Shown: positions 5,060 to 27,128 of the stretch, in pieces
Position numbering within the stretch: position 1 is the stretch's first letter
Layout: the number at the start of each line of letters is the position of its first letter
From: a virus
Length of the DNA: 35,201 bases
Strand: one strand, 5' to 3'
IMG/VR virus record: IMGVR_UViG_3300032087_004318
Span: 1-35,201 of that record
Translations under genes and position numbers: made by a program
The notes under the pieces: generated by a model
What the model was told of the DNA's origin: nothing
Seen by the model: the letters and a program-made list of their open reading frames with translations, nothing else
Database searches by the model: none

Positions 5060-5083
5060 CCTAAAAACTTTTTAGGTTTTTTT
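5060..5083 (+). terminator. Intrinsic terminator after the lysis-type genes
   Basis: An A/T-rich inverted repeat (CCTAAA.../...TTTAGG) is followed directly by seven T. It ends the late transcript just before promoter block 1. Confidence 0.8.
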
Positions 5084-5091
5084 CTGTCTCA

Positions 5092-5181
5092 GCTGTTAAT
5101 TATTGTTGACAGCTATATAGCTGTGACGATATAAATAAAGCATAAGAATTACTTAATCACTTTTACTCAGGGCACAGACAA
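5092..5181 (+). promoter_or_regulatory. Repeated promoter block, copy 1
   Basis: -35 TTGACA at 5106-5111, an 18-nt spacer, -10 TATAAA at 5130-5135. The spacer overlaps a perfect 16-bp palindrome, ACAGCTATATAGCTGT (5109-5124), between the promoter hexamers, an ideal place for a repressor. The 5' leader contains a TAAG/CTTA small inverted repeat and ends in GGGCACA 5 nt before ATG. The whole ~90 bp recurs at 6893, 7258 and 25309. Confidence 0.85.
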
Positions 5182-5511
5182 ATGAGCACAGACATCCAAA
5201 AAAACGAACTGACCACAAATGACAGTGATGTACTTATCACTTACCTGATCAAAGACCTTAATAAGCTTGAGCTTGAGCTTGATAAGCTTGTTAAGGAGCA
5301 AGCCACTGGCAAGGTTGATGACAACAGCATAGAGGCTGTCTTTGTAATGCGTAAAGTAATCAAAGCACATGAGCTGGCTAGTAAGCTAAGTGCATCAGAT
5401 TGCTGGAGTGATTTGGCAGAGCGAACCTTTATAGGCATGGTTGATGTTTTTGCCTTCAGCTACGGTGACCGATGTGAAAAACTAGGTTTACCTAACAGGT
5501 TTGCTGAGTAA
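5182..5511 (+). CDS. Orphan cassette gene, helical protein
   Basis: 109 residues, ATG 5 nt after the GGGCACA box of promoter block 1. It is acidic and mostly helical, with a leucine/charged alternation near residues 30-40 (NKLELELDKLV) that could be a short coiled coil. No family was recognised. It is the first gene of the cassette array, so it should be the most strongly expressed from the block-1 promoter and is a candidate early host-interaction protein. That role is inferred only from its context. Confidence 0.65.
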   Translation: MSTDIQKNELTTNDSDVLITYLIKDLNKLELELDKLVKEQATGKVDDNSIEAVFVMRKVIKAHELASKLSASDCWSDLAERTFIGMVDVFAFSYGDRCEKLGLPNRFAE

Positions 5512-5513
5512 TT

Positions 5514-5558
5514 AACCAGCCCCCTCACGGGGGCGCATTTTTAGAAGGGCACAGAGCA
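5514..5558 (+). repeat. Hairpin + T-run + GGGCACA cassette spacer, copy 1
   Basis: A perfect 6-bp stem (GCCCCC / GGGGGC, loop TCAC, 5519-5534) is followed by CGCATTTTTAGAA and GGGCACA (5547-5553), then 5 nt to the ATG at 5559. The same module precedes 5870, 6169, 7797, 25733 and 26035. It can act as a weak terminator as well as a translation leader. Confidence 0.85.
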
Positions 5559-5822
5559 ATGGTACCTACAGAAGTTTTAATTAAAGAGATGCAGCAAACA
5601 GGTGAGCTGCCTAGTGACTACAGGCCAGAAGACCGGAACCAGCTGGCCATTGATTACCTCTATGGTCAAATAGAATTTGTGAAAGATCAGATTGAGAAGT
5701 TTAGCCAGCTGGGCAAGCAGGATTATGTGGAAGGGCTTGAGAGATCAATACCAAAGCTGCATGCACAAATTGCCTACTGGATGGGCAAAGCTGCATGGAA
5801 GCACACAGGTTATACAGAGTAA
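5559..5822 (+). CDS. Orphan cassette gene
   Basis: 87 residues, helical, with alternating charged and hydrophobic residues (IEFVKDQIEKFSQL at about 38-51). No signal peptide, membrane segment or known motif. It lies between two hairpin/GGGCACA spacers, so it is an independent module. The start is fixed by its position 5 nt after the GGGCACA box. Function unknown. Confidence 0.65.
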   Translation: MVPTEVLIKEMQQTGELPSDYRPEDRNQLAIDYLYGQIEFVKDQIEKFSQLGKQDYVEGLERSIPKLHAQIAYWMGKAAWKHTGYTE

Positions 5823-5869
5823 TTAATTAAGCCTCTCACGGGGGCGCATTTTTAGAAGGGCACAATACG
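5823..5869 (+). repeat. Cassette spacer, copy 2 (imperfect stem)
   Basis: GCCTC-TCAC-GGGGGC (5831-5845) keeps the G-rich arm but has a C-to-T change in the left arm. TTTTTAGAA and GGGCACA (5858-5864) are unchanged, with ATG 5 nt later. The box is better conserved than the stem. Confidence 0.8.
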
Positions 5870-6124
5870 ATGTCAGAACAGATTTTTTACTATAACGAAA
5901 ATTGCACCCTAGGTGGCCAGCTTTGTTTTGATGACGGCCAGATCGACTCTTACCTCAATGATGAGGGCTGTGATATATCTGCATTTAATGATGCAAGTGA
6001 TACAGTCGAAGAGACATTGGAATGGGCATATGAAGTGTTGAGAATAACCACACCCACCCTAGCCAGCAACTGGTTTAGGCATAAGGTGGCTTTGAATGTA
6101 ATTGAATATCTTAAAGACAAATAA
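5870..6124 (+). CDS. Orphan cassette gene, acidic protein
   Basis: 84 residues, strongly acidic in the first half (many D/E between residues 20 and 48), then a helical C-terminal half. Strong acidity in a small early phage protein can reflect DNA mimicry (as in Ocr-type antirestriction proteins), but there is no specific similarity to support that here. Start fixed by the spacer module. Function unknown. Confidence 0.65.
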   Translation: MSEQIFYYNENCTLGGQLCFDDGQIDSYLNDEGCDISAFNDASDTVEETLEWAYEVLRITTPTLASNWFRHKVALNVIEYLKDK

Positions 6125-6168
6125 ACCAAGCCCCCTCACGGGGCGCATTTTTAGAAGGGCACAATACC
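6125..6168 (+). repeat. Cassette spacer, copy 3
   Basis: Hairpin 6130-6144 (GCCCC/GGGGC with TCA in the loop), T-run, GGGCACA at 6157-6163 and ATG 5 nt downstream. Confidence 0.85.
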
Positions 6169-6867
6169 ATGGGGATTTATGTACACGATTTGAGAAGCAA
6201 AAAGAAGAGGGTGGCAATTCACAATAAGGAAGATTTCAAATGTGGTACCAGCAACCTGTACCTCATGCCTTACCAGTATAAGTATGGAGTTGCTAATGAC
6301 TCAATTTGCAATCGCTCAGCAACGTGGGCTCACAAGGCTGGCAATCGAATAGATGAAACTGATGCACAAAAAAGGTACATGGAGAAAGTGGCTGAGATGA
6401 GGAGATACAATTACCCACTCAATGCCTCCTTTTGCGGCTGGCCACCTAATCTGCTGATTCTCTCAAATGACTTTGAGAACCTCATAGGGTGTGAGGTCTT
6501 CATCTACACTGGCACGGTATCCTGCTATGATGGCGGTGGTTGCTTGCAGGCTTTTGGTTACATCACAGGTCAGAGCGCCAGTGGGCAGTACATTGTAAAG
6601 CGTGAGTATTCTGAGTTTGAGGTTGTTGATATGGGTAACACTTTTGAGCCTGAGTACCATGGCTGCACAGTGCACAGAACCACCACCCACTTTGTAAAGA
6701 CTGCTCATGAGTTAGGTATTGATGAATACCCTTACCCATACTCTGCCACACATCTTGTGCACAGCAGTGACTATGAGGAGGTCTGGTATCGTGATGGCTT
6801 TGAGATCAAGGAGCCACTCACTGCTGCTGAGTTGCGTGAGAAAAACCAGCCCATTTGGCAGGTGTAA
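6169..6867 (+). CDS. Largest orphan cassette protein
   Basis: 232 residues, rich in Tyr, Cys, His and Gly. A central segment (about residues 108-130, with CEVFIYTG, CYDGGG and GYITG) suggests a compact beta fold. No endolysin motif, peptidase triad or nuclease motif could be assigned. It ends block 1: a poly-A/poly-T terminator overlaps the stop codon. It is the only gene in the array of a size compatible with an enzyme, so it deserves structure prediction. Function unknown. Confidence 0.65.
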   Translation: MGIYVHDLRSKKKRVAIHNKEDFKCGTSNLYLMPYQYKYGVANDSICNRSATWAHKAGNRIDETDAQKRYMEKVAEMRRYNYPLNASFCGWPPNLLILSNDFENLIGCEVFIYTGTVSCYDGGGCLQAFGYITGQSASGQYIVKREYSEFEVVDMGNTFEPEYHGCTVHRTTTHFVKTAHELGIDEYPYPYSATHLVHSSDYEEVWYRDGFEIKEPLTAAELREKNQPIWQV

Positions 6868-6883
6868 AAAAGTTGCTTTTTTT
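6866..6883 (+). terminator. A/T hairpin terminator overlapping stop codon
   Basis: AAAAAAG / CTTTTTT inverted repeat around TTG, ending in a run of seven T. It separates the block-1 transcript from promoter block 2. Confidence 0.6.
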
Positions 6884-6892
6884 ATTGCTCCG

Positions 6893-6981
6893 GCTGTTAA
6901 TTATTGTTGACAAGTATATAGCTGTGACGATATAAATAAAGCATAGGAATTACTTAATCACTTTCACAAGGGCACAGACAA
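6893..6981 (+). promoter_or_regulatory. Repeated promoter block, copy 2
   Basis: TTGACA 6907-6912, 18-nt spacer, TATAAA 6931-6936. The palindrome is changed in its left arm (ACAAGTATATAGCTGT) compared with copies 1 and 4. The leader ends in GGGCACA 5 nt before the ATG at 6982. Confidence 0.85.
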
Positions 6982-7200
6982 ATGAGCACAAATATTAAAA
7001 AATTTGAAATTGGAAAAACTTACTCATGCAGAAGCATCTGCAACTATGACTGCATTTTTTCCATCGTGGTTACAGACCGGTCAAAATGCTTTGTAAGCAC
7101 AGCCTGTGGCAAAAGGCTCAAGGTAACTATCAGAGATGGTGAGGAGACCGTAATGCCACAGGGCAGGTACTCAATGGCACCAGTAATCTCAGCAGCTTAG
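6982..7200 (+). CDS. Small beta-rich orphan protein
   Basis: 72 residues with YSCRSICNYDCIFS near the N-terminus, then alternating basic and hydrophobic strands and a YSMAPVISA end. I recall small phage and plasmid proteins with a comparable Tyr/Arg-Ser-x-Cys pattern and YSM-type end, but no function is known to me and this was not checked. It shares its first six bases after ATG (ATGAGCACA) with the gene at 5182, both directly after a promoter block. Start fixed by the block. Confidence 0.65.
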   Translation: MSTNIKKFEIGKTYSCRSICNYDCIFSIVVTDRSKCFVSTACGKRLKVTIRDGEETVMPQGRYSMAPVISAA

Positions 7201-7204
7201 GAAA

Positions 7205-7249
7205 TTAACCAGCCTCCTCACGGGGGCTAAAAACTTTTTAGTTTTTTTT
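7205..7249 (+). terminator. Cassette hairpin fused to intrinsic terminator
   Basis: A C/G-rich hairpin of the cassette type (7212-7227) is followed not by the GGGCACA box but by CTAAAAACTTTTTAG and a run of eight T. This is a spacer joined to a terminator, marking the end of the block-2 transcript. Confidence 0.7.
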
Positions 7250-7257
7250 ATGTCTCA

Positions 7258-7346
7258 GCTGTTAATTATTGTTGACAAGTATATAGCTGTGACGATATAA
7301 ATAAAGAATAAGAATTACTTAATCACTTTGCACGGGAAATAAAACG
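7258..7346 (+). promoter_or_regulatory. Repeated promoter block, copy 3
   Basis: TTGACA 7272-7277, 18-nt spacer, TATAAA 7296-7301, with the same variant palindrome as copy 2. Its 3' end has diverged: CACGGGAAATAAAACG replaces the GGGCACA box before the ATG at 7347. Confidence 0.8.
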
Positions 7347-7526
7347 ATGAAAAACCAAATCAAAAAAATTAAGTCTACTGTTTTCGACTATTACAACGGC
7401 ACAGCAGAGATTAACGAAAAAATGTACACCGTTACAATTATTCCTACTAAGGGGATGAAATTTACAACCACGCTAAGAGGCTTCAAAAACAATGTAGCAA
7501 ACGGCGTTATTGAATTAATTAAATAA
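7347..7526 (+). CDS. 59-residue basic orphan protein
   Basis: Starts at ATG 7347, directly after promoter block 3. The product is lysine-rich at the N-terminus (MKNQIKKIK), then probably two or three beta strands. It is more A/T-rich and asparagine/lysine-rich than its neighbours, which hints at a different origin. It lacks the GGGCACA box that almost all other cassette genes have. No function recognised. Confidence 0.55.
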   Translation: MKNQIKKIKSTVFDYYNGTAEINEKMYTVTIIPTKGMKFTTTLRGFKNNVANGVIELIK

Positions 7527-7530
7527 CGGC

Positions 7531-7578
7531 AACTCTAGGAATAAGAATTACTTAATCAATTTCACAAGGGCACAGACA
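7531..7578 (+). repeat. Truncated promoter-block leader (no promoter hexamers)
   Basis: Bases from AATAAGAATTACTTAATCA onward copy the 3' half of the promoter block and keep the GGGCACA box (7568-7574), but the TTGACA/TATAAA half is absent. The gene at 7579 is therefore read from block 3. The junction shows that the 3' half of the block can move or be retained alone. Confidence 0.75.
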
Positions 7579-7752
7579 ATGACTCCAGAGCAAAAAGAAT
7601 TTGAATTAAACAGACTACGCAACCAGTACAGGCAATGCGTTGAGCTTGGCATGACTGACTCAGCATGGCTCTATCGCAAAGAGTTTATTTTACTGCGTGA
7701 TAAAAACATTGTAGGCCAGCCTGACTGGTCAGAGTTTGAGGGCTTAGAGTAA
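7579..7752 (+). CDS. 57-residue orphan protein
   Basis: Starts 4 nt after a GGGCACA box. It is helical and charged (MTPEQKEFELNRLRNQYRQC), with two Trp and an acidic C-terminus. It has the look of a small helix-turn-helix hairpin or an inhibitor, but no family was recognised. The start is well fixed by the leader repeat, and the stop is followed at once by another cassette hairpin. Confidence 0.6.
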   Translation: MTPEQKEFELNRLRNQYRQCVELGMTDSAWLYRKEFILLRDKNIVGQPDWSEFEGLE

Positions 7753-7796
7753 TTAACCAAGCCCCTCAGGGGCGCATTTTTAGAAGGGCACAAAAA
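7753..7796 (+). repeat. Cassette spacer, copy 5
   Basis: Hairpin GCCCC-TCA-GGGGC at 7761-7773, TTTTTAGAA, GGGCACA 7786-7792, ATG 4 nt later. The loop is TCA rather than TCAC, with a matching change in stem length, as in the copies at 25694 and 25995. Confidence 0.85.
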
Positions 7797-8045
7797 ATGA
7801 AGATAAAACCAACAACCTGCTCATGCACAACATGGGTGGAAGTAGCAAAGAAAATAGAGCAGTGGCTACCAAAGTACCACACTGTCACTAATGAGGATTT
7901 AGCTGCTCTCATTGAGCCCCTATTCAGTGACCTGCACACCATGGCTGCTCTGGCTGATATGGCCAGTGAGGCAACCACTATCATGCTGTCAACGTACCTC
8001 AAGCAATGGCATGAGAATCCCCATTTACTAGATGAGGTGGCGTGA
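7797..8045 (+). CDS. Orphan cassette gene, helical
   Basis: 82 residues, with a Cys-x-Cys near the N-terminus (CSCTTW) and then helices (KIEQWLPKYH, then Ala/Met-rich). No domain recognised. It is the last gene with a cassette spacer in this island. The following genes are joined by 1-11 nt stop/start overlaps instead, so it heads a conventional operon of five small genes. Confidence 0.6.
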   Translation: MKIKPTTCSCTTWVEVAKKIEQWLPKYHTVTNEDLAALIEPLFSDLHTMAALADMASEATTIMLSTYLKQWHENPHLLDEVA

Positions 8046-8329
8046 TGTGGAAAAGCAGAACTAAGCATATTATCTCAGACATATCCAAGCGCAGAGTGTG
8101 GACTACCACAGACAACCAGTATCAGATCATCTACACAGAATCACTGTTGATGCCAAAGCCATGGAAGAAGCTGAGGAAGGATGAGCGCAAGAAGTACCTC
8201 AGGCCAGTGTGGCAGGCTTTTGTAATGCAGCCTGACGGTGACGGGTACACATGGCTTGTGCGTAAGTACTTTAGAACATTCAAAGCAGCAGAGCGTGCAA
8301 TCAAGAAGCACCAGAGGGGGGCAGCATGA
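8045..8329 (+). CDS. Small basic protein, unknown
   Basis: 94 residues from ATG 8045, overlapping the previous stop (TGATG). It is very basic (K/R-rich, especially about residues 38-50 and 75-90) with several Trp and Tyr, as in nucleic-acid-binding proteins. No named domain. The coupled start and shared operon with a zinc-knuckle protein and an XRE-type protein suggest a DNA- or RNA-related role, which is an inference. Confidence 0.55.
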   Translation: MWKSRTKHIISDISKRRVWTTTDNQYQIIYTESLLMPKPWKKLRKDERKKYLRPVWQAFVMQPDGDGYTWLVRKYFRTFKAAERAIKKHQRGAA

Positions 8330-8547
8330 AAGGCAAACAAAGAAGGCAGACAGGCTGGCGTGATTTTGGAGCCACCAACAAAGTGGGCACATGCCTCTGG
8401 TGTGGCTCAAAGATTGGAGCTAGAAAACCAACAGGCAAAACCCCTGAGCACTTTTGCACGCTCAGGTGCTCCTCTCAATTTGGGTCAAGCATGGCAGAGC
8501 AGGGTTATAAGTTAATTGATGATTCTGACAATAAGGGGGGTGCCTGA
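8326..8547 (+). CDS. Small zinc-finger-like protein
   Basis: 73 residues with CLWCG (about residues 23-27) and CTLRC (about 45-49), a four-cysteine arrangement fitting a treble-clef or zinc-ribbon knuckle. The N-terminus is basic (KGKQRRQ). It overlaps both neighbours by a few bases (ATGA and TGATG), so it is translationally coupled. Likely a small nucleic-acid-binding or protein-interaction factor. Exact role unknown. Confidence 0.6.
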   Translation: MKGKQRRQTGWRDFGATNKVGTCLWCGSKIGARKPTGKTPEHFCTLRCSSQFGSSMAEQGYKLIDDSDNKGGA

Positions 8548-8657
8548 TGTACATACAAAGCCCCATACTAATAGAAGTGATTACCCTGAGCGCCATGGCT
8601 CTCTGGTTAATCACAAATCTTTTCTTAGAACTAAAGGAGGTGTCAGGTGATCATTGA
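8547..8657 (+). CDS. 36-residue single-pass membrane peptide
   Basis: ATG 8547 overlaps the preceding stop. It encodes one hydrophobic segment (IEVITLSAMALWLITNLFL, about residues 9-27) and a short charged tail. It overlaps the following GTG-started gene by 11 nt and contains that gene's Shine-Dalgarno (AAAGGAGGT). Being short, it could be chance, but the overlaps on both sides and the clean transmembrane pattern support a real peptide. Confidence 0.4.
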   Translation: MYIQSPILIEVITLSAMALWLITNLFLELKEVSGDH

Positions 8658-8868
8658 CACAGACAATAAGCCAGCTGCTGTGGCTCAGGTCATTAAGGTC
8701 AGGAAGGCTAAGCAGCTATCTGTATATGAGCTGGCCATTAAAAATGATGCTGGTGTCAGTCAGCCCCACTGGTCTGATATTGAGGCTGGCAAAAAAGAGC
8801 CCTCTTGGGAGGTACTTTTTTTGATGCTTAAAGCGCTTGGCTGCAACATAAGCATAGTAGTAAAGTGA
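8647..8868 (+). CDS. XRE-type helix-turn-helix protein
   Basis: 73 residues from GTG 8647, with an excellent Shine-Dalgarno (AAGGAGGT) five bases upstream. The fold pattern is that of Cro/CI-type domains: VIKVRKAKQLSVYELAIK, then VSQPHWSDIEAGKKEPSWEV, then LFLMLKALG. The recognition helix would be around SQPHWSDIE. Probable DNA-binding regulator, possibly of the palindromic operators in the promoter blocks. That link is a guess based on proximity. A strong terminator follows. Confidence 0.7.
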   Translation: MIIDTDNKPAAVAQVIKVRKAKQLSVYELAIKNDAGVSQPHWSDIEAGKKEPSWEVLFLMLKALGCNISIVVK

Positions 8869-8890
8869 ACCACCCCAAGAGGGTTAAAGA

Positions 8891-8919
8891 GGATGAGCCT
8901 GCAAGCTCATCCTTTTTTT
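8891..8919 (+). terminator. Strong intrinsic terminator between convergent genes
   Basis: A perfect 8-bp stem (GGATGAGC / GCTCATCC, loop CTGCAA) followed by seven T. It ends the cassette operon and overlaps the integrase stop codon, so it may also act on the opposite strand. Confidence 0.9.
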
Positions 8920-9778
8920 ATGCGCACCGTTTGACCGTCACTGGCTTGGCTGGTTTAAGCAGAGCCCTTGGTGCAATGTAGTGTTTACGGGCAACCTCTG
9001 TGCCACTAACATGGCCAAGGCTACGGCTGGCAGCTTCAAGGCCGTCACGCTCAGCAACCATGGTGGCGTGAGTTTTCCTGAGAGCCTTGAGACCAACCCC
9101 CACCCCTTTCAGGCCAGCACGCTCAAAAGCCTTATCACACCAATGGCGTAAGCAGTCTTTACTCACTGGCAGTATGAGCCTCCTGTTGAGTGCTCCTGAG
9201 TAGTCACAGAGATTGACAAGCTCCTTGGTCACCTGAGCACAGTGCAGCTGCCCTGTCTTTTGCTGGATGAAAGTAAATACACCAGCACCGTCAATCTGGC
9301 TCCTCTCTAGGTGCCTGATGTCAACAGCTCTGAGCCCTGCCTGCAGCGCAAAGAGTATGGCAATCTCAGCCACTAGTGAACCATCAAGCCCAATGCTGAG
9401 CCTGCCTGATATACTGCGTGCAGCATCAAGCAGCCTGCTCACCTCATCCATGCTCAAGCTTTGAGGAGGCTTGAGAGTTAGCCTGACTTTTCTGATGCGC
9501 TTTGAGTGATAGGGAGCGCATAGCCCCAGCTCTGCTGAATAATTCCACATGACCAAAATGCCAGCCTTGCGGTTTTTAACCGTGGCCGTGCTGTAAGTTT
9601 GCTCAAGTTGTAAAATCAAATTGTTAACTGTGACCTCTGTGAGGTCTGCGACAGTTGGCTCATAATCAAGAAAGCCAGCAAGGTTGTTAATCGCAATTAA
9701 ATATTGCTGCTGGCAACCTGCACCGATTGCACGCTCTACTGTGAGCTGACTAAGCAGCTCCTTCAATGTCTTTTGCAT
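8918..9778 (-). CDS. int: Tyrosine recombinase (phage integrase)
   Basis: 286 residues, minus strand. The N-terminal SAM-like DNA-binding domain covers about residues 1-90. The catalytic domain has R150 (in LQAGLR), K174, the KxxR box K231-R234 (usual first residue is His), H256 (LGHVSG) and the nucleophile Y267. It catalyses site-specific integration and excision of the phage. The attP core lies just upstream at 9924-9975, the normal arrangement. The start is the only suitable ATG, with AGGA upstream. It is the only minus-strand gene in this half of the genome. A Lys instead of His in the HxxR box is tolerated in other phage integrases. Confidence 0.95.
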   Translation of the reverse strand: MQKTLKELLSQLTVERAIGAGCQQQYLIAINNLAGFLDYEPTVADLTEVTVNNLILQLEQTYSTATVKNRKAGILVMWNYSAELGLCAPYHSKRIRKVRLTLKPPQSLSMDEVSRLLDAARSISGRLSIGLDGSLVAEIAILFALQAGLRAVDIRHLERSQIDGAGVFTFIQQKTGQLHCAQVTKELVNLCDYSGALNRRLILPVSKDCLRHWCDKAFERAGLKGVGVGLKALRKTHATMVAERDGLEAASRSLGHVSGTEVARKHYIAPRALLKPAKPVTVKRCA

Positions 9779-9804
9779 TTTGCAAATATCCTAATAAGGG
9801 TCAT

Positions 9805-9824
9805 TGCATCCATGCTGCATCCAA
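9805..9824. repeat. Direct repeat near attP (possible integrase arm sites)
   Basis: TGCATCCA occurs twice, three bases apart, between the integrase start and the attP core. Short direct repeats here are candidates for arm-type integrase binding. Not proven. Confidence 0.35.
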
Positions 9825-9923
9825 GCGCGTGATTTTTTTATCGTCCGTCTAAAGCTCCAGCTTTAGAACAATCTTTTTTTACACTCCAGAGGTAAGGGTT
9901 GTGACATCTGTGATGCCACTATA

Positions 9924-9975
9924 TTCAGGTTCTAGTGCCCACTAGGGCGTGCAGGTTCAACTCCTGTCATCCGCA
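9924..9975 (+). other. attP: attP core: 3' half of a tRNA-Leu(CAG) gene
   Basis: The bases read as the 3' half of a leucine tRNA: anticodon loop TTCAGGT (anticodon CAG), 3' anticodon stem, long variable arm with a GCCC/GGGC stem, T-arm GCAGG-TTCAACT-CCTGT, acceptor strand CATCCGC and discriminator A. The 5' half (an acceptor strand like GCGGATG, D-arm) is missing upstream and no CCA follows. It is therefore not a functional tRNA but the segment of identity with the host attachment gene. Integration would restore the host tRNA 3' end. The exact core boundaries cannot be fixed without the host sequence. Confidence 0.85.
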
Positions 9976-9981
9976 CTGCAG

Positions 9982-10048
9982 CCACCGGCTGTGCCTAAAA
10001 ATTGCCTTTGGTGATTGTTCTTAACCAGTATTAGGCAGAGCACGGTGG
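9982..10048. repeat. Imperfect inverted repeat beside attP
   Basis: The left arm 9982-9998 (CCACCGGCTGTGCCTAA) and right arm 10031-10048 pair with only a few mismatches across a 32-nt loop. It lies between attP and the regulator gene. It could be a structured RNA end, an excisionase/integrase arm region or a transcription block. There is no T-run on the plus strand. Bases 9779-10101 carry no protein gene. Confidence 0.5.
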
Positions 10049-10064
10049 TTGTCTATGTACAAAA

Positions 10065-10082
10065 TTGTCAACTTTTGTAAAC
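10065..10082 (-). promoter_or_regulatory. Operator-like site upstream of the XRE regulator
   Basis: Read on the minus strand this is GTTTACAAAAGTTGACAA. It matches 10381-10398 and 18292-18309 at nearly every base. Each holds two TTGACA-like half sites one helical turn (10 bp) apart. Located just before the regulator start, it suits autoregulation. Confidence 0.6.
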
Positions 10083-10101
10083 TGAAAGGATGATAGCAAC
10101 A

Positions 10102-10341
10102 ATGATCACAGATGAGCAACTCAAGCAAAACCTCCAGCGCAACATCAGGCGGCTGCTGGATCAGACTGAGATGAGCCAAAGCGATTTAGCACGCGCCACT
10201 GGTGAAAGTCGCAGCAGGATAAGCTTAGTCGTTAACAGCTGCAGAGTTCCAAGTGCAGCCTCACTGGCTAGAATTGCTGAGGCACTTGACACCACAGTTG
10301 ATGAATTGATTACCAACCCCAAGCGCAAACGCTCAGCGTAA
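10102..10341 (+). CDS. XRE-family (CI/Cro-like) transcriptional regulator
   Basis: 79 residues from ATG 10102 (GAAAGGA 11 nt upstream; a further ATG at 10090 would leave no spacing). A full helix-turn-helix domain: IRRLLDQTEMSQSDLARATG, then ESRSRISLVVNSCRVPSAAS with the recognition helix, then LARIAEALDTTVDELI. It ends in a basic tail (NPKRKRSA). It is a minimal repressor or Cro without a cleavable C-terminal domain. It is flanked by two copies of the same operator (10065 and 10381), so it probably controls the lysis-lysogeny switch, itself and the csrA/replication operon. Confidence 0.85.
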   Translation: MITDEQLKQNLQRNIRRLLDQTEMSQSDLARATGESRSRISLVVNSCRVPSAASLARIAEALDTTVDELITNPKRKRSA

Positions 10342-10411: not shown

Positions 10412-10457
10412 CTTTCTTGGTTAAGGATAATCACCAGCTGCCACGATGGCTCTGGTG

Positions 10458-10510
10458 TGACAAGGAAGTTACAAAGGAGTCAATCAATGTTGACGCTAAC
10501 AAGGAAGTTA
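10458..10510 (+). promoter_or_regulatory. Putative CsrA/Rsm binding sites in leader and start of csrA-like gene
   Basis: ACAAGGAAGTTA occurs twice (10460-10471 and 10499-10510). Between them is the Shine-Dalgarno ACAAAGGAG (10471-10479). All three contain GGA in an ACAAGGA-like context, close to the known CsrA target consensus (RUACARGGAUGU). Two sites bracket the start codon at 10487, a classical arrangement for autorepression of translation. RNA structure and binding are untested. Confidence 0.55.
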
Positions 10511-10744
10511 GGGCAGTCTCTAGAGCTTGAGCTCTCAGGGCTGGCCACAATGGTGGCCAGCGCTGCTGCCTCTAAAGCACGCTGTGGTGAATCTGATGCA
10601 GACATAGCTGAGAGCATTAAGCATCTGCTCCCAAGCCTCACAGTGAAACTATCTAAAGTGCGTGGCACCTCTGCCAGCATATCAATCCAAGCACCCCAGT
10701 CAGTTGCTGTAAGGCGCACTGAGATTGAGAAGGTGGAGCAATGA
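10487..10744 (+). CDS. csrA-like: CsrA/Rsm-family RNA-binding regulator with internal helical insertion (RsmN/RsmF-like)
   Basis: 85 residues from ATG 10487 (AGGAG 7 nt upstream; an in-frame GTG at 10457 has no such signal). The N-terminus MLTLTRKLGQSLELEL is CsrA strand 1-2, and the C-terminal part (about residues 51-80: LTVKLSKVRG, ISIQAP, VAVRRTEI) is CsrA strands 2-5. R6 and R77 match the two arginines that contact GGA in CsrA. Between the halves about 33 residues are inserted, including a helix (DADIAESIKHLL), a layout like RsmN/RsmF of Pseudomonas but longer. CsrA proteins bind GGA motifs as dimers and repress or stabilise mRNAs. First gene of the early operon and coupled to the next gene (ATGA). 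Confidence 0.8.
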   Translation: MLTLTRKLGQSLELELSGLATMVASAAASKARCGESDADIAESIKHLLPSLTVKLSKVRGTSASISIQAPQSVAVRRTEIEKVEQ

Positions 10745-16268: not shown

Positions 16269-17891
16269 ATGGTTGCTGTGGCTAGGTTGATTGGTGGCGC
16301 GGGTACTGGCAAAACCACTGAGCTCATGAGAATTATAGAGCAGGTGGCAGGCAAAGGAGTTGACCCCTACTCTATCGGGTTCTGTAGTTTTACCAGAGCA
16401 GCACGGTTGGAAGCCAGCACCAGAGCAGCTGAGATGTTTGGTATCAGGCAACCTGAGCTAGAGCGCTTTGGTTGGTTTAAGACTCTGCACTCCATTTGTT
16501 ATAGGCAGCTGGGTGTGGGCAGTGAGCTGCTGGCATCTGGTAAGAAAACCTCTGACTGGTTTGAGGAGCATTTTGGGGAGCGTGTAGATGTTGAGGCTGA
16601 TGATGATGTCATGAGCTTTACAGGTAAGAGCAGGACTGGGCAGGTGCTGGCTCTTTGGAGCTCGTGCAGAAATAGGCTTGAGCCTTTTGAGGATAGTTGG
16701 GAGAGGTCAGTTAGGTGCTCAATAGATGTGCCTGACCTTGAAGAGTGCAGGGATGTTGTCAGCAGGTATGAGATGCTCAAGGCCATTGATGGTGTGGTTG
16801 ATTTTGTTGACATCCTTGGCAAGTTTGCTGGCTGGGCTTTTGGTTTTGACGGTCACAATAAATGTGAGCCAGATGGTGAGGTGCCTAATGTGCCTGTCTG
16901 GGTATTTGATGAGCAGCAAGATACAAGTCAGCTGCTCGATTCTGTATGCAGGCGGCTTGTTTACTCTGGCAGCACCTCATGGTGCTACTTAGCAGGTGAC
17001 CCCTTCCAGAGTATCTATGGTTTCTCTGGTGCTGATGGCTCACTTTTTAGGAATTGGGATGCAGACCATGAGCGCATCACAGGCAAGAGCTGGAGGTGCT
17101 CACCTGAGATACTTGAGCTGGGTGAGAGGTGCATTGAGAATTGTGCTGACTACTTTGATAGAGGCATTGAGCCTGCTGCTCATGATGGATCAGTTGGTAT
17201 TACTCAGGCACAAACCATGAGCTGGCTGACTGGCTTGGCTCCTGATGATGATGTGCTATTGCTGGCACGCACCAACAGACTGGCCAGCTGGTTTGCTAAA
17301 AAGTTAAATGCTGTCGGTCTACCTTGGGAGTCTACTAAAGGCACCGGCAGCTGGTTGGCACCATCTAAGAGAATTGCTTTGAGGTGTCTGCAAGCACTAG
17401 CATCTGGTGAGGTTGTTGACTGGCTTGAGTTCTTAGAAGTTGTCAAGCAGATTAATGCAAAAGGCAACCTTACCAGAGGTACTAAAACAAAATGGTTAAG
17501 GGGGGATAAGCCAGCTGCACCAATGGTTAAGCTTGATGGGCTTACAGACTGGGGTGCCACTGATGAGCTTGTCAGTAAGATCAAAGCTGGCAGGTGGTCT
17601 CAGTTGATTGATGGCGGTGCAATTTATGAGCAGGCGTGCTCTAGGTTTGATGTGATGAGCGTGCTTAAGCCAACAATCAAGGTGGGTACAATCCACAGCG
17701 TGAAGGGTGCTGAGGCTGATGAGGTTGTAATGCTGACATCAAGCACCAAGCAGATTAGTAACTCTGAAAAGTATGCAGGTGGATTGGATGAAGAGAGGCG
17801 GCTGGCTTATGTTGGTGTCACCCGTGCAAGAAAAAAGCTTACTCTGCTTAATGACTTAAACGCACGGAGCAGGATGCCCATGCCATGGTAA
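16269..17891 (+). CDS. UvrD/Rep-like superfamily 1 helicase
   Basis: 540 residues from ATG 16269, with AAGGG 8 nt upstream. All main SF1A motifs are visible: Walker A GGAGTGKTT (9-17), FCSFTRAA (motif Ia), VFDEQQD (motif II), LAGDPFQSIYGFSGAD (motif III), LLARTNRLA, VGTIHSVKGAEADEVV (motif V) and RLAYVGVTRARKKL (motif VI). It unwinds DNA 3'-5' with ATP and likely serves replication or recombination. It is slightly shorter than host UvrD (about 720 residues), lacking the C-terminal extension. It overlaps the nuclease gene by 7 nt. Confidence 0.92.
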   Translation: MVAVARLIGGAGTGKTTELMRIIEQVAGKGVDPYSIGFCSFTRAARLEASTRAAEMFGIRQPELERFGWFKTLHSICYRQLGVGSELLASGKKTSDWFEEHFGERVDVEADDDVMSFTGKSRTGQVLALWSSCRNRLEPFEDSWERSVRCSIDVPDLEECRDVVSRYEMLKAIDGVVDFVDILGKFAGWAFGFDGHNKCEPDGEVPNVPVWVFDEQQDTSQLLDSVCRRLVYSGSTSWCYLAGDPFQSIYGFSGADGSLFRNWDADHERITGKSWRCSPEILELGERCIENCADYFDRGIEPAAHDGSVGITQAQTMSWLTGLAPDDDVLLLARTNRLASWFAKKLNAVGLPWESTKGTGSWLAPSKRIALRCLQALASGEVVDWLEFLEVVKQINAKGNLTRGTKTKWLRGDKPAAPMVKLDGLTDWGATDELVSKIKAGRWSQLIDGGAIYEQACSRFDVMSVLKPTIKVGTIHSVKGAEADEVVMLTSSTKQISNSEKYAGGLDEERRLAYVGVTRARKKLTLLNDLNARSRMPMPW

Positions 17892-19630: not shown

Positions 19631-22183
19631 ATGGCAGTTATTACATCTATAGGGCACACATCGAACCAGCCCACAACTCTCACCACTGGTACACCCAGCA
19701 GCTGCAGCACTACCAGCACAGGTGTGTACTCTGTCTCATTCTCATCTGCCCCCTCTGGTGTCAGTGTTGGTGATATGTACCATGCCACTGATGGTGTCAC
19801 CTCCTATATCACTTATAGCTATTTAGTGCAGTCAATAAGTGGGTCAACATTAGAGCTCAGGTACATCACAGATGATGGTGGCATGATGAGCTCAGGTGCT
19901 GTGTCACCGTGTGCAGTTTATGACTATGACCAAAATTACAACATGGTCACAGCCACAGGTACCTTTAAGCGTGCCTACTCTACCATCACACTCTGGGAGG
20001 CTGGGCTTGATGACTCTGATATATATAGCTCAGGCTCAGATGCTGAGGGGCACCTATTTGCAGACTCTGATTTTAATGAAGCTTTTACCATTAACGGTGG
20101 CAGCACTGTTGGGCTCAACAGCATTAAGCTCACAAGCCATGACTCATCTGGCAACAGGCATGATGGCACAGTGGGCTCTGGCGCAAAAATTAGATACACA
20201 GGCAATGTGCATCAGGTCTGTCTTATTAGCAGGAATGATGTAGAGGTCAGCTGGATTGAGTTCGATATGGGTGCTGGGTCACTCAATAGCAGTAATAACA
20301 GAGCAGTGCAGTGTGATACTAATGCGTATGACGAAATTATTATTTCTCACAACATTGTGCATGACCTGTTTGGCTCTTTTCCGATTGCTATCAGATTTGA
20401 GGGTGGTAATTCATCATCAGATACTAGGTATATTCATAACAATATTGCCTATGATATTGATGACTCTGATGACCGTGTAAAATTCTTTTTACACAATGGT
20501 AATTACCCAGTATTTTGTTGGAATAATACAGTATATAAGCTCAGGACTGGCAGAAGTGATAAAGATGCAGTCAGTTATTTTAGTTGGGCTAACACAGCTG
20601 TTATGGAGCTTAAAAATAATTTAAGCATCCAGACTGCAAGCACTGGGTCAGAGACTTTTGCTACTAATTACAGTTCCGCAAGTGACTACAATGCAACTGA
20701 CCTGAGCAGTGCAACTGGGGGAGCAAATGACATCACTGGCCTTACCAGTAGTGAGTTTGTCAGTGTGACATCTAATGCTGTTGATTTACATTTAAGCTCA
20801 ACAGCATCATCAGCTAATGCTGGTGTCTCTATTGGCTCTACAGCTGGTGTTGATATTGATATTGATGGTGTGCAGCGCTCAGGCACTTGGTCTATCGGTG
20901 CTGACTTTGTTGCTCCTGCTAATGTAAATGTCTCTCTGGGTGTGAGCTCATTTGGGTTGGAGAGCTCAGGTGATTTAATTCACGGCTCAATGATTAGCTC
21001 AGGTGTGAGCTCATTTGCATTAGAGAGCTCAGGTGATTTGATTCACGGATCAATGAGTAGCTCAGGTGTGAGCTCATTTGGTTTAGAGAGCTCAGGTGAT
21101 TTTGATTACGGGTCTGTGAGTAGCTCAGGTGTGAGCTCATTTGGGTTGGAGAGCTCAGGTGATTTAATTCACGGCTCAATGATTAGCTCAGGTGTGAGCT
21201 CATTTGGGTTGGAGAGCTCAGGTGATTTAATTCACGGATCAGTGAGTAGCTCAGGTGTGAGCTCATTTGCATTAGAGAGCTCAGGTGAGTTTTATTATGG
21301 GTCTGTTGTCTCAACTGCTGTAAGCTCATTTGGTCTAGAGACCTCAGGCAGCTTCTCAATGGGCAGCCCTAATGTCATTGCTACACTGGGTGTGAGTTCA
21401 TTTGGTTTAGAGAGCTCAGGTGATTTGATTCACGGCTCAATGACCAGCTCAGGTGTGAGCTCATTTGCATTAGAGAGCTCAGGTGAGTTTGATTATGGGT
21501 CTGTCAGCAGCTCAGGTGTGAGCTCCTTTGGTTTAGAGAGCTCAGGTGAGTTTGATTATGGGTCTGTCAGCAGCTCAGGTGTGAGCTCATTTGCATTAAG
21601 CACATTAATCACCCCTAGTCTCAATTTTAATATAGAGCTTGGCGTGAGCTCATTTGGTTTAGAGAGCTCAGGTGATTTTGATTATGGGTCTGTGAGTAGC
21701 TCAGGTGTGAGCTCCTTTGGTTTAGAGAGCTCAAGTGATTTTGATTATGGGTCTGTGATCAGCTCAGGTGTGAGCTCATTTGCATTAGAGAGCTCAGGTG
21801 ATTTTGATTATGGGTCTGTGATTAGCTCAGGTGTGAGCTCTTTTGGGTTGAGTGCCTCTGGTCAGTTTGACTGGGCTGTTGATATAGGCAGTGCATCAGT
21901 TGCCTTAGAGTCTAGCATTGATGAGCACTATGGCTCAGCAGTATCTACAGGTGCTGTGTCTATTGGCTTTAAGGTGTATGGCCGTGGTGACCTGTTTGGC
22001 ATCTGGTATGTGACTGGCATGATAGAGGTTGCAGCTGTTGATGGTGCTTTAGACTTTGCATCTATCAGCTGCACTGCTGATGTTGCTGTCATTGATGATG
22101 CAGTTATCAGCTCAGTTGATGTGCGTGGTGTGTTTGATGTCTCAGACAATGGCTCTGGGGTGTCTGGTTTCATGGAGATATAA
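19631..22183 (+). CDS. Tail fibre / adsorption protein: beta-helix plus 15 tandem repeats
   Basis: 850 residues. About residues 60-420 look like a right-handed parallel beta-helix (repeated short strands with NNI, DSSG and GSGAKIRYTGN patterns), as in phage tailspikes. From residue 437 there are 15 copies of a 21-residue unit (GVSSFGLESSGDF..GSV.SS) coded by 63-nt repeats, in three blocks split by two unique spacers. The C-terminal ~120 residues are a separate beta domain. It probably binds or degrades a host surface polymer, with the repeats forming a shaft. Repeat DNA is prone to length change. Confidence 0.7.
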   Translation: MAVITSIGHTSNQPTTLTTGTPSSCSTTSTGVYSVSFSSAPSGVSVGDMYHATDGVTSYITYSYLVQSISGSTLELRYITDDGGMMSSGAVSPCAVYDYDQNYNMVTATGTFKRAYSTITLWEAGLDDSDIYSSGSDAEGHLFADSDFNEAFTINGGSTVGLNSIKLTSHDSSGNRHDGTVGSGAKIRYTGNVHQVCLISRNDVEVSWIEFDMGAGSLNSSNNRAVQCDTNAYDEIIISHNIVHDLFGSFPIAIRFEGGNSSSDTRYIHNNIAYDIDDSDDRVKFFLHNGNYPVFCWNNTVYKLRTGRSDKDAVSYFSWANTAVMELKNNLSIQTASTGSETFATNYSSASDYNATDLSSATGGANDITGLTSSEFVSVTSNAVDLHLSSTASSANAGVSIGSTAGVDIDIDGVQRSGTWSIGADFVAPANVNVSLGVSSFGLESSGDLIHGSMISSGVSSFALESSGDLIHGSMSSSGVSSFGLESSGDFDYGSVSSSGVSSFGLESSGDLIHGSMISSGVSSFGLESSGDLIHGSVSSSGVSSFALESSGEFYYGSVVSTAVSSFGLETSGSFSMGSPNVIATLGVSSFGLESSGDLIHGSMTSSGVSSFALESSGEFDYGSVSSSGVSSFGLESSGEFDYGSVSSSGVSSFALSTLITPSLNFNIELGVSSFGLESSGDFDYGSVSSSGVSSFGLESSSDFDYGSVISSGVSSFALESSGDFDYGSVISSGVSSFGLSASGQFDWAVDIGSASVALESSIDEHYGSAVSTGAVSIGFKVYGRGDLFGIWYVTGMIEVAAVDGALDFASISCTADVAVIDDAVISSVDVRGVFDVSDNGSGVSGFMEI
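20939..21892 (+). repeat. 63-bp tandem repeats coding 21-residue units
   Basis: Units start at 20939, 21002, 21065, 21128, 21191, 21254, 21317, 21389, 21452, 21515, 21578, 21641, 21704, 21767 and 21830. Spacing is exactly 63 bp except 72 bp before 21389. Units 7 and 11 have diverged ends, splitting the array into blocks. Each unit is full of GAGCTC-like sequence. DNA identity among the units is high, so recombination or slippage would change the shaft length. Confidence 0.95.
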
Positions 22184-25038: not shown

Positions 25039-25281
25039 ATGGCCAAAGCAGGAAGGCCAAAAGGAAGCAAAACAAAAAAGGTTGCAGTGGTTGATGCTGT
25101 GCGCACTAGGTGCATCAAGTGTGGGAGCACACAGAGAACCAAGTACAGCCAGAGGCGTGAGCTTAACACATCTGGCGTGCTACCAGATGGCACTGAGTTT
25201 GATAAGGTTATCTGGCGGCGCACAACATGCAAGAAGTGTGGGCAGGTCAGAGATGACCGTGAGTACCTCAAAGAGGGCTAA
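25039..25281 (+). CDS. Zinc-ribbon protein downstream of terminase
   Basis: 80 residues from ATG 25039 (AAGGAGG 6 nt upstream; ATG 25036 also in frame but too close). A basic N-terminus (AGRPKGSKTKK, AT-hook-like GRPKG) precedes two Cys pairs CIKCG and CKKCG about 40 residues apart, forming a zinc ribbon. The AT-hook-like GRPKG suggests DNA binding. It could be a packaging helper in place of a small terminase, an inference from position. Confidence 0.55.
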   Translation: MAKAGRPKGSKTKKVAVVDAVRTRCIKCGSTQRTKYSQRRELNTSGVLPDGTEFDKVIWRRTTCKKCGQVRDDREYLKEG

Positions 25282-25301
25282 AAAGTTTTTAATTTTTTTT
25301 T
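25279..25301 (+). terminator. A/T hairpin terminator before promoter block 4
   Basis: CTAAAAAGTTTTTAA followed by nine T, overlapping the stop codon. The same kind of terminator precedes every promoter block (5060, 6866, 7228). Confidence 0.65.
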
Positions 25302-25308
25302 GGTTCTG

Positions 25309-25397
25309 GCTGTTAATTATTGTTGACAGCTATATAGCTGTGACGATATAAATAAAGCATAAGAATTACTTAATCACTTTTACTAAGGGCACAAATC
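25309..25397 (+). promoter_or_regulatory. Repeated promoter block, copy 4
   Basis: TTGACA 25323-25328, 18-nt spacer, TATAAA 25347-25352, perfect palindrome ACAGCTATATAGCTGT (25326-25341), then GGGCACA (25387-25393) and ATG 4 nt later. It is nearly identical to copy 1 although 20 kb away. Confidence 0.85.
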
Positions 25398-25682
25398 ATG
25401 AGCTTTGTTATCTACCACATCGAAACCACTAGACTAATCGGAGACATTTACTCTCCAGCTCACAAGTCAGAGCGTGCTGCAAAGTGTGCACGCACTAGAT
25501 ACCTTAAAGCTAATCCTGAGGTTAACCCAGAAGAGTTGGCGATTGCAGACTACTCAGATTTTCACAACAACATTGAGAAAATGGTTGAGCGAAAAAATAG
25601 GATGACTGGTGAGATGTACATGGAGCGTGTTAATACACCACGCTCATGCTCTCCATCCTCAGAGCTTTACTGGAGCATGTAA
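25398..25682 (+). CDS. Orphan cassette gene of a widespread phage type
   Basis: 94 residues. The start IYHIETTRLIGD and the end VNTPRSCSPSSELYWSM recall a small protein seen in many myo- and podoviruses of marine bacteria (memory only, not checked). No function is known to me. It sits behind promoter block 4 and before a cassette spacer, within the packaging region, so it is a mobile accessory gene rather than part of packaging. Confidence 0.65.
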   Translation: MSFVIYHIETTRLIGDIYSPAHKSERAAKCARTRYLKANPEVNPEELAIADYSDFHNNIEKMVERKNRMTGEMYMERVNTPRSCSPSSELYWSM

Positions 25683-25732
25683 CAAATAACCAAGCCCCCT
25701 CAGGGGGGCGCATTTTAAGAAGGGCACAGGCG
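25683..25732 (+). repeat. Cassette spacer, copy 6
   Basis: Hairpin 25694-25709 (GCCCCC / GGGGGC, TCA loop), CATTTTAAGAA, GGGCACA 25722-25728, ATG 4 nt later. Confidence 0.85.
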
Positions 25733-25987
25733 ATGTTATCAGCAAAGCAAGCTGCAAAAAGAATCAGGCAATCAATCAAAAGCTGGGGCTATGACCCAGC
25801 TGGTAAAGTTGAAGTTTTCCCAGAGTGGGGATGTGATACCGTTATAAATATTGTTGTTAAAGGGCAATACAAGGAGGTAGAGGAAATCAAGCTTTTGGAG
25901 TTGTTTGACTTAATAGAGAAGCTGAGGAAGGATACAGACTACCGTTATCTCCACAGTGATTGGCATCACATCAGATTTTGGTATTAA
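25733..25987 (+). CDS. Orphan cassette gene
   Basis: 84 residues, starting at ATG 25733, 4 nt after the GGGCACA box (an upstream in-frame ATG at 25646 lies inside the previous gene and is not used). Basic N-terminus (SAKQAAKRIRQSIKSWGYD), then a strand/helix mix with a C-terminal YRYLHSDWHHIRFWY, rich in His and aromatic residues. No motif recognised. Confidence 0.65.
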   Translation: MLSAKQAAKRIRQSIKSWGYDPAGKVEVFPEWGCDTVINIVVKGQYKEVEEIKLLELFDLIEKLRKDTDYRYLHSDWHHIRFWY

Positions 25988-26034
25988 ATAATAAGCCCCC
26001 TCAGGGGGGCGAATTTTTAGAAGGGCACAGTATT
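25988..26034 (+). repeat. Cassette spacer, copy 7
   Basis: Hairpin 25995-26010 (GCCCCC / GGGGGC), GAATTTTTAGAA, GGGCACA 26023-26029, 5 nt before ATG 26035. Confidence 0.85.
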
Positions 26035-26253
26035 ATGACTCCAGATGGATACAGAATAAACGTAACTCAAGAGGGCTCTCTTTTCGGTGGCAAGGTTCAT
26101 TATTTTTCAATAGATGGAATTGTGGCCAAGTCTGATGCCATGAAAATTGCAGCTGAGATGACTTGGCAATATGGTGAGGAGCATGTGACTCTCAGCCACT
26201 GGCAATCATCGGGCAGAGATGTTGCTATAGATTTTGACCGTGAGCTTGAGTAA
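26035..26253 (+). CDS. Orphan cassette gene
   Basis: 72 residues from ATG 26035, fixed by the spacer (the frame is open further upstream but overlaps the previous gene). Beta strands at the N-terminus (GYRINVTQEGSLFGGKVHYF), then a helix and an acidic end (DFDRELE). No function recognised. Its stop TAA directly abuts the TTA stop of the convergent minus-strand gene. Confidence 0.6.
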   Translation: MTPDGYRINVTQEGSLFGGKVHYFSIDGIVAKSDAMKIAAEMTWQYGEEHVTLSHWQSSGRDVAIDFDRELE

Positions 26254-26451
26254 TTAACCACTTAGCAGCCTTTGGATCATGATGAGCCTGCTGACTAATC
26301 TGGCAGGCTCATCATACTCCAGCTTTACATCATCTATGAGCTCATCAATTTTGCGCTGAGCAATCACGCTCACCTGCCTTGCCCTCATGAGCTCAGTGGC
26401 TTGGCGGTTGGCTCCATCACCAACCCAGCCCTTGCATCTCTCATCTTTCAT
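26254..26451 (-). CDS. Small minus-strand protein
   Basis: 65 residues, basic and helical (QATELMRARQVSVIAQRKIDELIDD). Its ATG overlaps the stop of the phosphoesterase gene (TGATG on the minus strand), so both form one small operon. A 13-bp perfect inverted repeat (26279-26315) lies inside its coding region. It might be a partner or regulator of the phosphoesterase. Unknown family. Confidence 0.5.
   Translation of the reverse strand: MKDERCKGWVGDGANRQATELMRARQVSVIAQRKIDELIDDVKLEYDEPARLVSRLIMIQRLLSG
26279..26315. other. 13-bp perfect inverted repeat inside the minus-strand gene
   Basis: ATGATGAGCCTGC and GCAGGCTCATCAT around an 11-nt loop. GATGAGCCTGC also occurs in the terminator at 8891. 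It lies where two operons converge and could block transcription from both sides. There is no T-run directly after it, so classification as a terminator is uncertain. Confidence 0.55.
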
Positions 26452-27128
26452 CAGTCAAGCCTCATAGGTTCAAAGACTGCATAAACTCCATCTATGACAA
26501 TCCCACAGCCAATGATTGGCTTGCTGGTAAACTTAATGCCATAGTCCATGGCGGCTGTGTGGCGGTCTACGCCACACCCAACACTCATGCCAAATATCAT
26601 GGCATCCTCATTGGCAAAATAGGTCACCCCAGCCTGTGAGTGCAGGTGCCCCTGCACCCAAGAGCAAAAATGGTCTTTTGCATTTTTAAGTGCAGCCATT
26701 TGCCCACCCTTGCCCCTGTCACCGTGCGCATACTTCACACCGTCGATGTCATGCACTGAATACCTTGGCATCCAGTTCCAGTCTGGTGTTTGCCAGATTT
26801 GTCCATAGTCTTTTACCAGCTCTGTGGGTATGCCTGCTGTGCGTGCCTGCCTCTTGGGTAATGCGTCATGGTTGCCAGTCATTACTGTAACTTTGTTAAA
26901 AGCTTTGTAGAGGCTCTGCACTTGGCTCAGTGCTTGGCGGTACTCATCCTCTGGCGCTGGTGTGGCTGGGTTCTTTTCGTGGTAACTAATAGCATTAAAA
27001 TCAGCCACATCACCGATGTGTACAACGGTATCACATCCCCACTCTGCCTCAACCTGTTTCAGAAAATCAACATAGTCACTCAGCATCACTGGGCAATGTG
27101 TATCACCAATCACTAAAACGCGCGCCAT
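26451..27128 (-). CDS. Calcineurin-like phosphoesterase
   Basis: 225 residues, minus strand, with GGAG 8 nt before ATG. The metallophosphatase signature is complete: GDTHCP (about 8-13), HIGDVADF (about 37-44), TGNHD (about 83-87), a later HGD and GHLHS near the C-terminal third. It hydrolyses phosphoesters using two metal ions. Substrate unknown (nucleotides, cyclic nucleotides or nucleic acid). Placed in reverse inside the packaging module, it looks like an accessory (moron-type) gene, perhaps for host nucleotide signalling or defence evasion. Confidence 0.88.
   Translation of the reverse strand: MARVLVIGDTHCPVMLSDYVDFLKQVEAEWGCDTVVHIGDVADFNAISYHEKNPATPAPEDEYRQALSQVQSLYKAFNKVTVMTGNHDALPKRQARTAGIPTELVKDYGQIWQTPDWNWMPRYSVHDIDGVKYAHGDRGKGGQMAALKNAKDHFCSWVQGHLHSQAGVTYFANEDAMIFGMSVGCGVDRHTAAMDYGIKFTSKPIIGCGIVIDGVYAVFEPMRLD

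Follow-up and report, generated by a model that had tools for sequence, protein, structure and literature searches.

Eleven small genes of the phage record IMGVR_UViG_3300032087_004318, which was analysed over its full length of 35,201 bases (hereafter the window), were found to stand behind copies of two alternating repeat families, and these repeats probably serve both as on-switches for the genes and as sites of gene addition, loss or swap. The genes all lie on the + strand in two stretches (5061-8045 and 25278-26253), a module stands before every one of them (11/11), and modules were seen nowhere else in the phage genome. One family is a hairpin module of ~46 bp (module B; six copies plus one hybrid), and the other is a promoter module of ~116 bp (module A; four copies, preceding the 4/11 genes named c1, c5, c6 and d1). 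A preliminary description of this DNA had reported six copies of a hairpin/T-run/GGGCACA element, plus a seventh hairpin fused to a terminator, at two sites, and all of these are present. Its further statement that the same ~45-bp element bounds each gene was correct for the six copies and the hybrid, but four genes lie behind the 116-bp promoter module, which had been overlooked, and one lies behind a truncated leader. The modules are as follows:

Module B1, 5506..5553, + strand: stop context GAGTAATTAACCA, GCCCCCTCACGGGGGC and GCATTTTTAGAAGGGCACA
Module B2, 5817..5864, + strand: hairpin module
Module B3, 6117..6163, + strand: hairpin module
Module B4, 7747..7792, + strand: hairpin module with the stem one pair shorter, in both arms
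Module B5, 25682..25728, + strand: hairpin module
Module B6, 25983..26029, + strand: hairpin module
Hybrid, 7205..7250, + strand: module B hairpin joined to a terminator-like hairpin, CTAAAAACTTTTTAG plus T8
Module A1, 5061..5176, + strand: CCTAAAAACTTTTTAGG plus T7, TTGACA at 5106-5111, palindrome AGCTATATAGCT at 5111-5122, TATAAA at 5130-5135, leader, GGGCACA
Module A2, 6862..6977, + strand: spacer palindrome degenerate, AAGTATATAGCT
Module A3, 7227..7342, + strand: 3' end altered, with GCACGGGAAATAAAACG preceding the ATG
Module A4, 25278..25393, + strand: perfect palindrome AGCTATATAGCT at 25328-25339
Truncated module A (fifth copy), 7539..7579, + strand: promoter lost, leader and GGGCACA kept, before c7

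The motif GGGCACA lies 4-5 nt before the ATG in 10/11 cassette genes and is altered before c6. It was found upstream of none of the other gene starts checked (0/25), many of which carry an ordinary Shine-Dalgarno-like sequence. In module B, the stop context GAGTAATTAACCA is followed by GCCCCCTCACGGGGGC, GCATTTTTA, GAAGGGCACA, 4-5 variable bases and the ATG. The likeness of the B copies is far beyond chance: nhmmer gave E values of 1e-17 to 1e-22 for the six of them (with a model built from these copies), pairwise BLAST among them gave E values of about 1e-11 to 1e-4, and the 16-mer TTTTTAGAAGGGCACA occurs on the + strand of the window five times exactly and once with one mismatch, with no occurrence on the - strand and none for a reversed control. 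Stem length varies among the copies and the arms co-vary, B4 having five pairs and B1 six. The B hairpins rank among the most G+C-rich terminator-like sites in a scan of the window, and the hybrid at 7205-7250 forms two consecutive hairpins (z -3.5, with 0/200 shuffles folding as well). A known RNA family for the elements was rejected, the window being without a match to Rfam at the gathering threshold.

Module A is composed of a terminator-like A-run/T-run hairpin with a T tail, GTTAATTATTGTTGACA, an 18-nt spacer, TATAAA, the leader AGAATTACTTAATCACTTT, GGGCACA, 4-5 nt and the ATG, so that terminator-like hairpins lie upstream of a near-consensus promoter (TTGACA-18-TATAAA). The four copies, starting at 5061, 6862, 7227 and 25278, were detected by nhmmer with E values of 1e-42 to 1e-49, and their spacer palindrome AGCTATATAGCT is perfect in A1 and A4 and degraded in A2 and A3. 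A leader stretch of ~27 bp recurs as a direct repeat around c6 (7306-7333 and 7539-7565). As c6 lies between the two copies, their recombination would delete it, and the arrangement may represent the scar of a gene gain.

The genes behind the modules are the following:

c1, 5182..5511, + strand: 109 aa, start MSTDIQK
c2, 5559..5822, + strand: 87 aa
c3, 5870..6124, + strand: 84 aa, no relatives in the phage collection
c4, 6169..6867, + strand: 232 aa, no relatives in the phage collection
c5, 6982..7200, + strand: 72 aa, start MSTNIKK, C-terminal end YSMAPVISAA
c6, 7347..7526, + strand: 59 aa, inside the ~27-bp direct repeat
c7, 7579..7752, + strand: 57 aa, start ATGACTCCAGA
c8, 7797..8045, + strand: 82 aa
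d1, 25398..25682, + strand: 94 aa, C-terminal match in Sinorhizobium phage Phosso
d2, 25733..25987, + strand: 84 aa
d3, 26035..26253, + strand: 72 aa, start ATGACTCCAGA, its end formed by GAGTAATTAACCA, the opening part of module B, but not followed by a hairpin

PHROGs and Pfam returned nothing convincing for the eleven cassette proteins. They had been described as orphans sharing no sequence, which is true of the gene bodies; the repeat, however, extends into the coding sequence, with ATGAGCACA opening both c1 and c5 (MSTDIQK and MSTNIKK) and ATGACTCCAGA opening c7 and d3. Nor are all of them orphans: the family of c5 extends to unrelated phages, with relatives in Butyrivibrio phages, cyanophage PSS2 and five other viral contigs. 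In one of these contigs (L220:144-3068) a leader stands in four copies before four different small genes, the c5 relative among them, and in another (L221:1839-2499) the leader is duplicated with the c5 relative behind one copy; L223 is a weaker case, and no repeated leader was seen before the c5 relatives in L219 and L222. A leader copy nearby was thus found for 2/5 c5 relatives versus 4/186 core genes of related contigs, numbers that are small.

The first 91 bases of the record are identical to its last 91, and the contig was therefore taken to be a complete circular phage. Genes for a lambda-family portal, an SNF2 helicase, a Prim-Pol primase, a UvrD helicase and a metallophosphoesterase were found, together with an integrase gene and two xre-type regulator genes (8647-8868 and 10090-10341). 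The second array (25278-26253) is flanked by the terminase and 25036 genes on one side and by a reverse-strand gene pair (26254-27128) upstream of the portal on the other, and so lies inside the packaging/head module, as had been proposed. Elsewhere in the window, a small gene at 10457-10744 has a CsrA-like match (phrog_9500, E 5.5e-6), and a 63-bp tandem repeat in thirteen copies (20858-21930) lies within a tail-region gene (19631-22183).

Whether different genes stand between conserved repeats in relatives had been suggested as a check on cassette exchange, and such differences were found in three settings: between the window and a sister phage, between two closely related loci (L010 and L022), and among 13 loci of Pirellulaceae. 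The repeat of each setting is specific to its lineage, and the comparisons therefore support the kind of system rather than an exchange of the window's own cassettes.

The sister phage, G001 (the record of L009, and also of L116/L117), has a terminase 62% identical to that of the window, and its genes match nearly the whole genome with relative order kept except for the array block. Its repeats occupy the same two slots as the window arrays. Promoter-leader repeats lie at about 13112, 14214 and 14930 of L116 and on the minus strand at about 3220 of L009, and start-associated repeats like AACAAGGACACGAGACAATG precede more small genes (L116 13379, 14612, 15247, 15595 and 15960, with variants at 16467 and 17104). 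Over an 85-nt leader, identity is 83-93% within the window, 69-89% within G001 and about 61% between the two phages (shuffled control 50.6 +/- 2.5). No cassette gene is common to the window and G001. Two neighbouring G001 genes (L116:16485-17904) have 63 bp of leader and first codons in common (MLTQKKINEAI) and then diverge, and the G001 promoters carry different inverted repeats between -35 and -10 (ATATGT..ACATAT). The block comprising the array, c10 and xre1 (window 5061-10341) is inverted in G001 (L116:12336-18399) relative to the flanking genes, and the window integrase has no match in G001. Internal repeats were also seen in the sister phage in the region matching the tail-region repeat gene (L116 about 1076-1676).

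In L016 the slot between the terminase/25036 genes and the portal contains no gene (65 bp); in L009, L010 and L022 it is filled by other genes. L010 and L022 are 92% identical and differ beside the metallophosphoesterase gene, where a leader and start GAGGAGACAACGATG are common to both and are followed by unrelated genes; after these the two are again alike, in an 81-bp post-stop hairpin element. One gene has been cleanly exchanged for another here, the start and post-stop sequences on either side being conserved. L022 also has one cassette more than L010.

The third setting consists of loci from Rhodopirellula, Rubripirellula, Aporhodopirellula and others, called prophages by their terminase and in most cases also by portal and tail genes:

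Pirellulaceae prophage loci (n=13): L149, L150, L151, L154, L158, L159, L160, L170, L172, L177, L180, L182 and L196

In these 13 loci a repeated leader, CATGGCTCATGTGT ... GGAGACA n ATG, precedes 3-7 small genes on the strand opposite the terminase. There are several such loci per genome, three of them in Rhodopirellula rubra CECT 8075, and in seven whole genomes (6.6-10.8 Mb) the element copies cluster in prophage loci. Which gene families follow the element differs from one locus to the next (F0-F2; F0-F5-F2; F0-F8-F9-F10-F7-F2; F0-F6-F2; F0-F7-F2). Between L151 and L149 the difference is one gene plus one element, and the left end of homology and its right-hand start both fall within the same 64-bp element; the crossover lies inside the element.

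Two further arrays were seen in other contigs. A distant relative (L028:1197-4383) has a separate four-copy array in which the small genes ahead of a related terminase are set apart by a long GC-rich terminator-like hairpin, ACGGGCGCCCGTT.., and a 72.7-kb viral contig (L136:16173-21296) carries a promoter-like leader of ~130 bp with an inverted repeat in at least six copies before small genes.

The window's own elements appear to be phage-specific. Among other phages, exact module patterns were found only in the same phage from one sample, and the sister's element only in the sister; nhmmer detected no window modules in the related loci tested, and DNA similarity to phage records was limited to short chance-level matches. 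The records of the same phage are L001 (99.9% identical over 14.3 kb) and L008 (identical terminase), both from that one sample. A search of viral and genome collections anchored on snf2 yielded only the sister and distant loci. The relatives of the terminase are viral contigs and, among genomes, mostly Planctomycetota with some Lentisphaerota, so that the host is probably a planctomycete or related bacterium.

The explanation favoured here, at a probability of roughly 0.7, is that moron-type expression modules double as homology patches for the gain, loss and swap of cassettes. Module A, with its terminator, sigma70-like promoter, leader and ribosome site, would end the previous transcript and begin the next. 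Module B would separate genes within one transcript, with its GC hairpin and short T-run, probably a leaky terminator or a 3'-end protector, followed by the same ribosome site; these promoter, terminator and hairpin functions are predicted from sequence features. Since the copies are nearly identical, they could act as homology patches at which ordinary homologous recombination, the presumed agent, would add, delete or swap a gene together with one module. Recombination between copies would also keep them alike within one phage while they drift between phages, and such concerted evolution may be the cause of their identity. The gain, loss or swap of genes at short repeats, as proposed in the preliminary description, is partly supported, by relatives that have their own repeats. 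Primarily, the elements appear to be expression modules, a role that had been overlooked.

Several observations weigh against this explanation. The hairpins of single B copies show only a modest gain in folding over shuffled sequences (z -0.5 to -1.8), and the promoter and terminator roles are predictions from sequence. The exchange between L010 and L022 may have relied on homology that flanks the repeats and not on the repeats themselves. In the Pirellulaceae loci gene order is largely kept, a picture to which simple gain and loss within a syntenic region would also lead. No variation was seen within the species of this phage, its sole other records being near-identical and from one sample. 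Furthermore, no array repeats were found near snf2/xre2 in the regions fetched from G316, a related prophage, or G062, the closest planctomycete loci by snf2.

The main rival, which we consider unlikely, though less so than the others, is a regulon only, without any part in moving genes: selection, or a trans-acting regulator common to all copies, would keep promoter/operator and ribosome site alike, and turnover in the slots would be ordinary phage mosaicism. A palindrome between -35 and -10, perfect or degraded, in the A modules and the other inverted repeats in the G001 promoters are as would be expected of an operator, and xre-type regulator genes adjoin the array. Weighing against such a regulon are identity that extends into the first codons of some genes, the truncated leader (7539-7579) and the direct repeat around c6, which resemble recombination scars, and the L151/L149 breakpoint within the element. 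It is quite improbable that a dedicated cassette-capture system operates in phages and prophages of Planctomycetota, with a phage or host factor binding or cutting the element and adding genes behind a constant leader.

Gene-plus-element units and a tyrosine integrase gene near the array (8918-9778) could also be read as an integron-like site-specific system, in which a phage recombinase recognises the element and inserts or excises cassettes. We regard this as highly improbable, given that G001 has arrays without a match to the window integrase and that the element sequence differs from lineage to lineage; moreover, the 46-116 bp of ordinary homology between copies suffices for general recombination, and the element would seem to read as terminator plus ribosome site rather than as a recombination core. 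A small mobile repeat inserting between genes (like repetitive extragenic palindromic sequences or miniature inverted-repeat transposable elements, REP/MITE) would fit palindromic, intergenic copies at two sites and the separate hairpin array in L028. All copies, however, have one orientation relative to the genes and a fixed distance from the ATG, none occurs elsewhere in the phage or in the other loci tested, and no transposase was seen, which makes this very unlikely. The same low probability attaches to a common host terminator or regulatory repeat acquired by the phage, an origin that the preliminary description had itself raised. A hairpin with a T-run is an ordinary bacterial form, but TTTTTAGAAGGGCACA had no match in seven Pirellulaceae genomes, even allowing one mismatch, and one exact match, about the chance number, in 392 planctomycete genomes, and the Pirellulaceae prophage element clusters in prophage loci in seven genomes. 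A host-terminator origin was rejected on these counts, which come from planctomycete genomes, the probable host group.

If modules of moron type do double as homology patches, the arrays bear on the open question of how phages gain small genes and express them at once. Natural sequences show here what is exchanged (one gene with one expression module) and, for one pair of relatives, where the break fell; some of these relatives reside as prophages in Pirellulaceae that have been cultured. In practice, duplicated leaders could be a sign of accessory genes gained recently, a set to search for functions directed against the host or against defence.

Morons are accessory genes of temperate phages that are expressed autonomously. 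The window genes resemble them in carrying promoter and terminator signatures and in being present or absent between neighbouring core genes, with the slot empty in L016 and filled by other genes in L009, L010 and L022; morons, however, each bring their own signals, whereas the eleven window genes use duplicates of one module pair. As regards integrons, the window has a phage-type integrase to which the sister with arrays has no match, and no search aimed at IntI or attC was made. Searches of open-licence literature turned up no account of such arrays in phages of planctomycetes.

Mobile regulatory cassettes termed PeSL (promoter-early stem-loop) have reportedly been described in T4-type phages by Arbiol (2010) and Comeau (2014). 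PeSLs combine a stem-loop terminator with a promoter, recur between small variable genes and are credited with mediating the shuffling of genes (PMC4503421). Module A appears similar, as a terminator-like hairpin plus TTGACA-18-TATAAA in four copies between small genes. Gene shuffling between repeats was seen in relatives with other element sequences but not within the window's own species. The window phage, however, is not T4-type (35 kb and circular, with a lambda-family portal, an integrase gene and a terminase related to those of planctomycete genomes); its module sequence is unrelated, it has an extra promoterless tier (hairpin plus ribosome site), and its host is probably a planctomycete.

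In cluster K mycobacteriophages, many non-structural genes have a short, asymmetric start-associated sequence (SAS), as a rule 3-7 bp ahead of their start codon; in about half of the cases it is joined by an extended upstream element (ESAS), whose consensus differs by subcluster, and these repeats are restricted to cluster K and scarcely occur in the hosts (PMC3203893). The likeness in plan that had been noted is real, as the window repeats are likewise two-tier, lie a few bases before start codons in one orientation and in part have a long upstream element. Membership by sequence was rejected, since the 13-bp consensus GGGATAGGAGCCC is absent from the window with up to 2 mismatches and occurs five times with 3 mismatches versus 6.1 expected by chance. 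The window differs further in that its short tier has a terminator-like hairpin, its long tier a TTGACA/TATAAA promoter, and one of its sites lies in the head module. The earlier view that no named system has this element was too strong: the system is a member of neither PeSL nor SAS/ESAS and is close to both in plan, which suggests that PeSL-like gene shuffling is not confined to T4-type phages.

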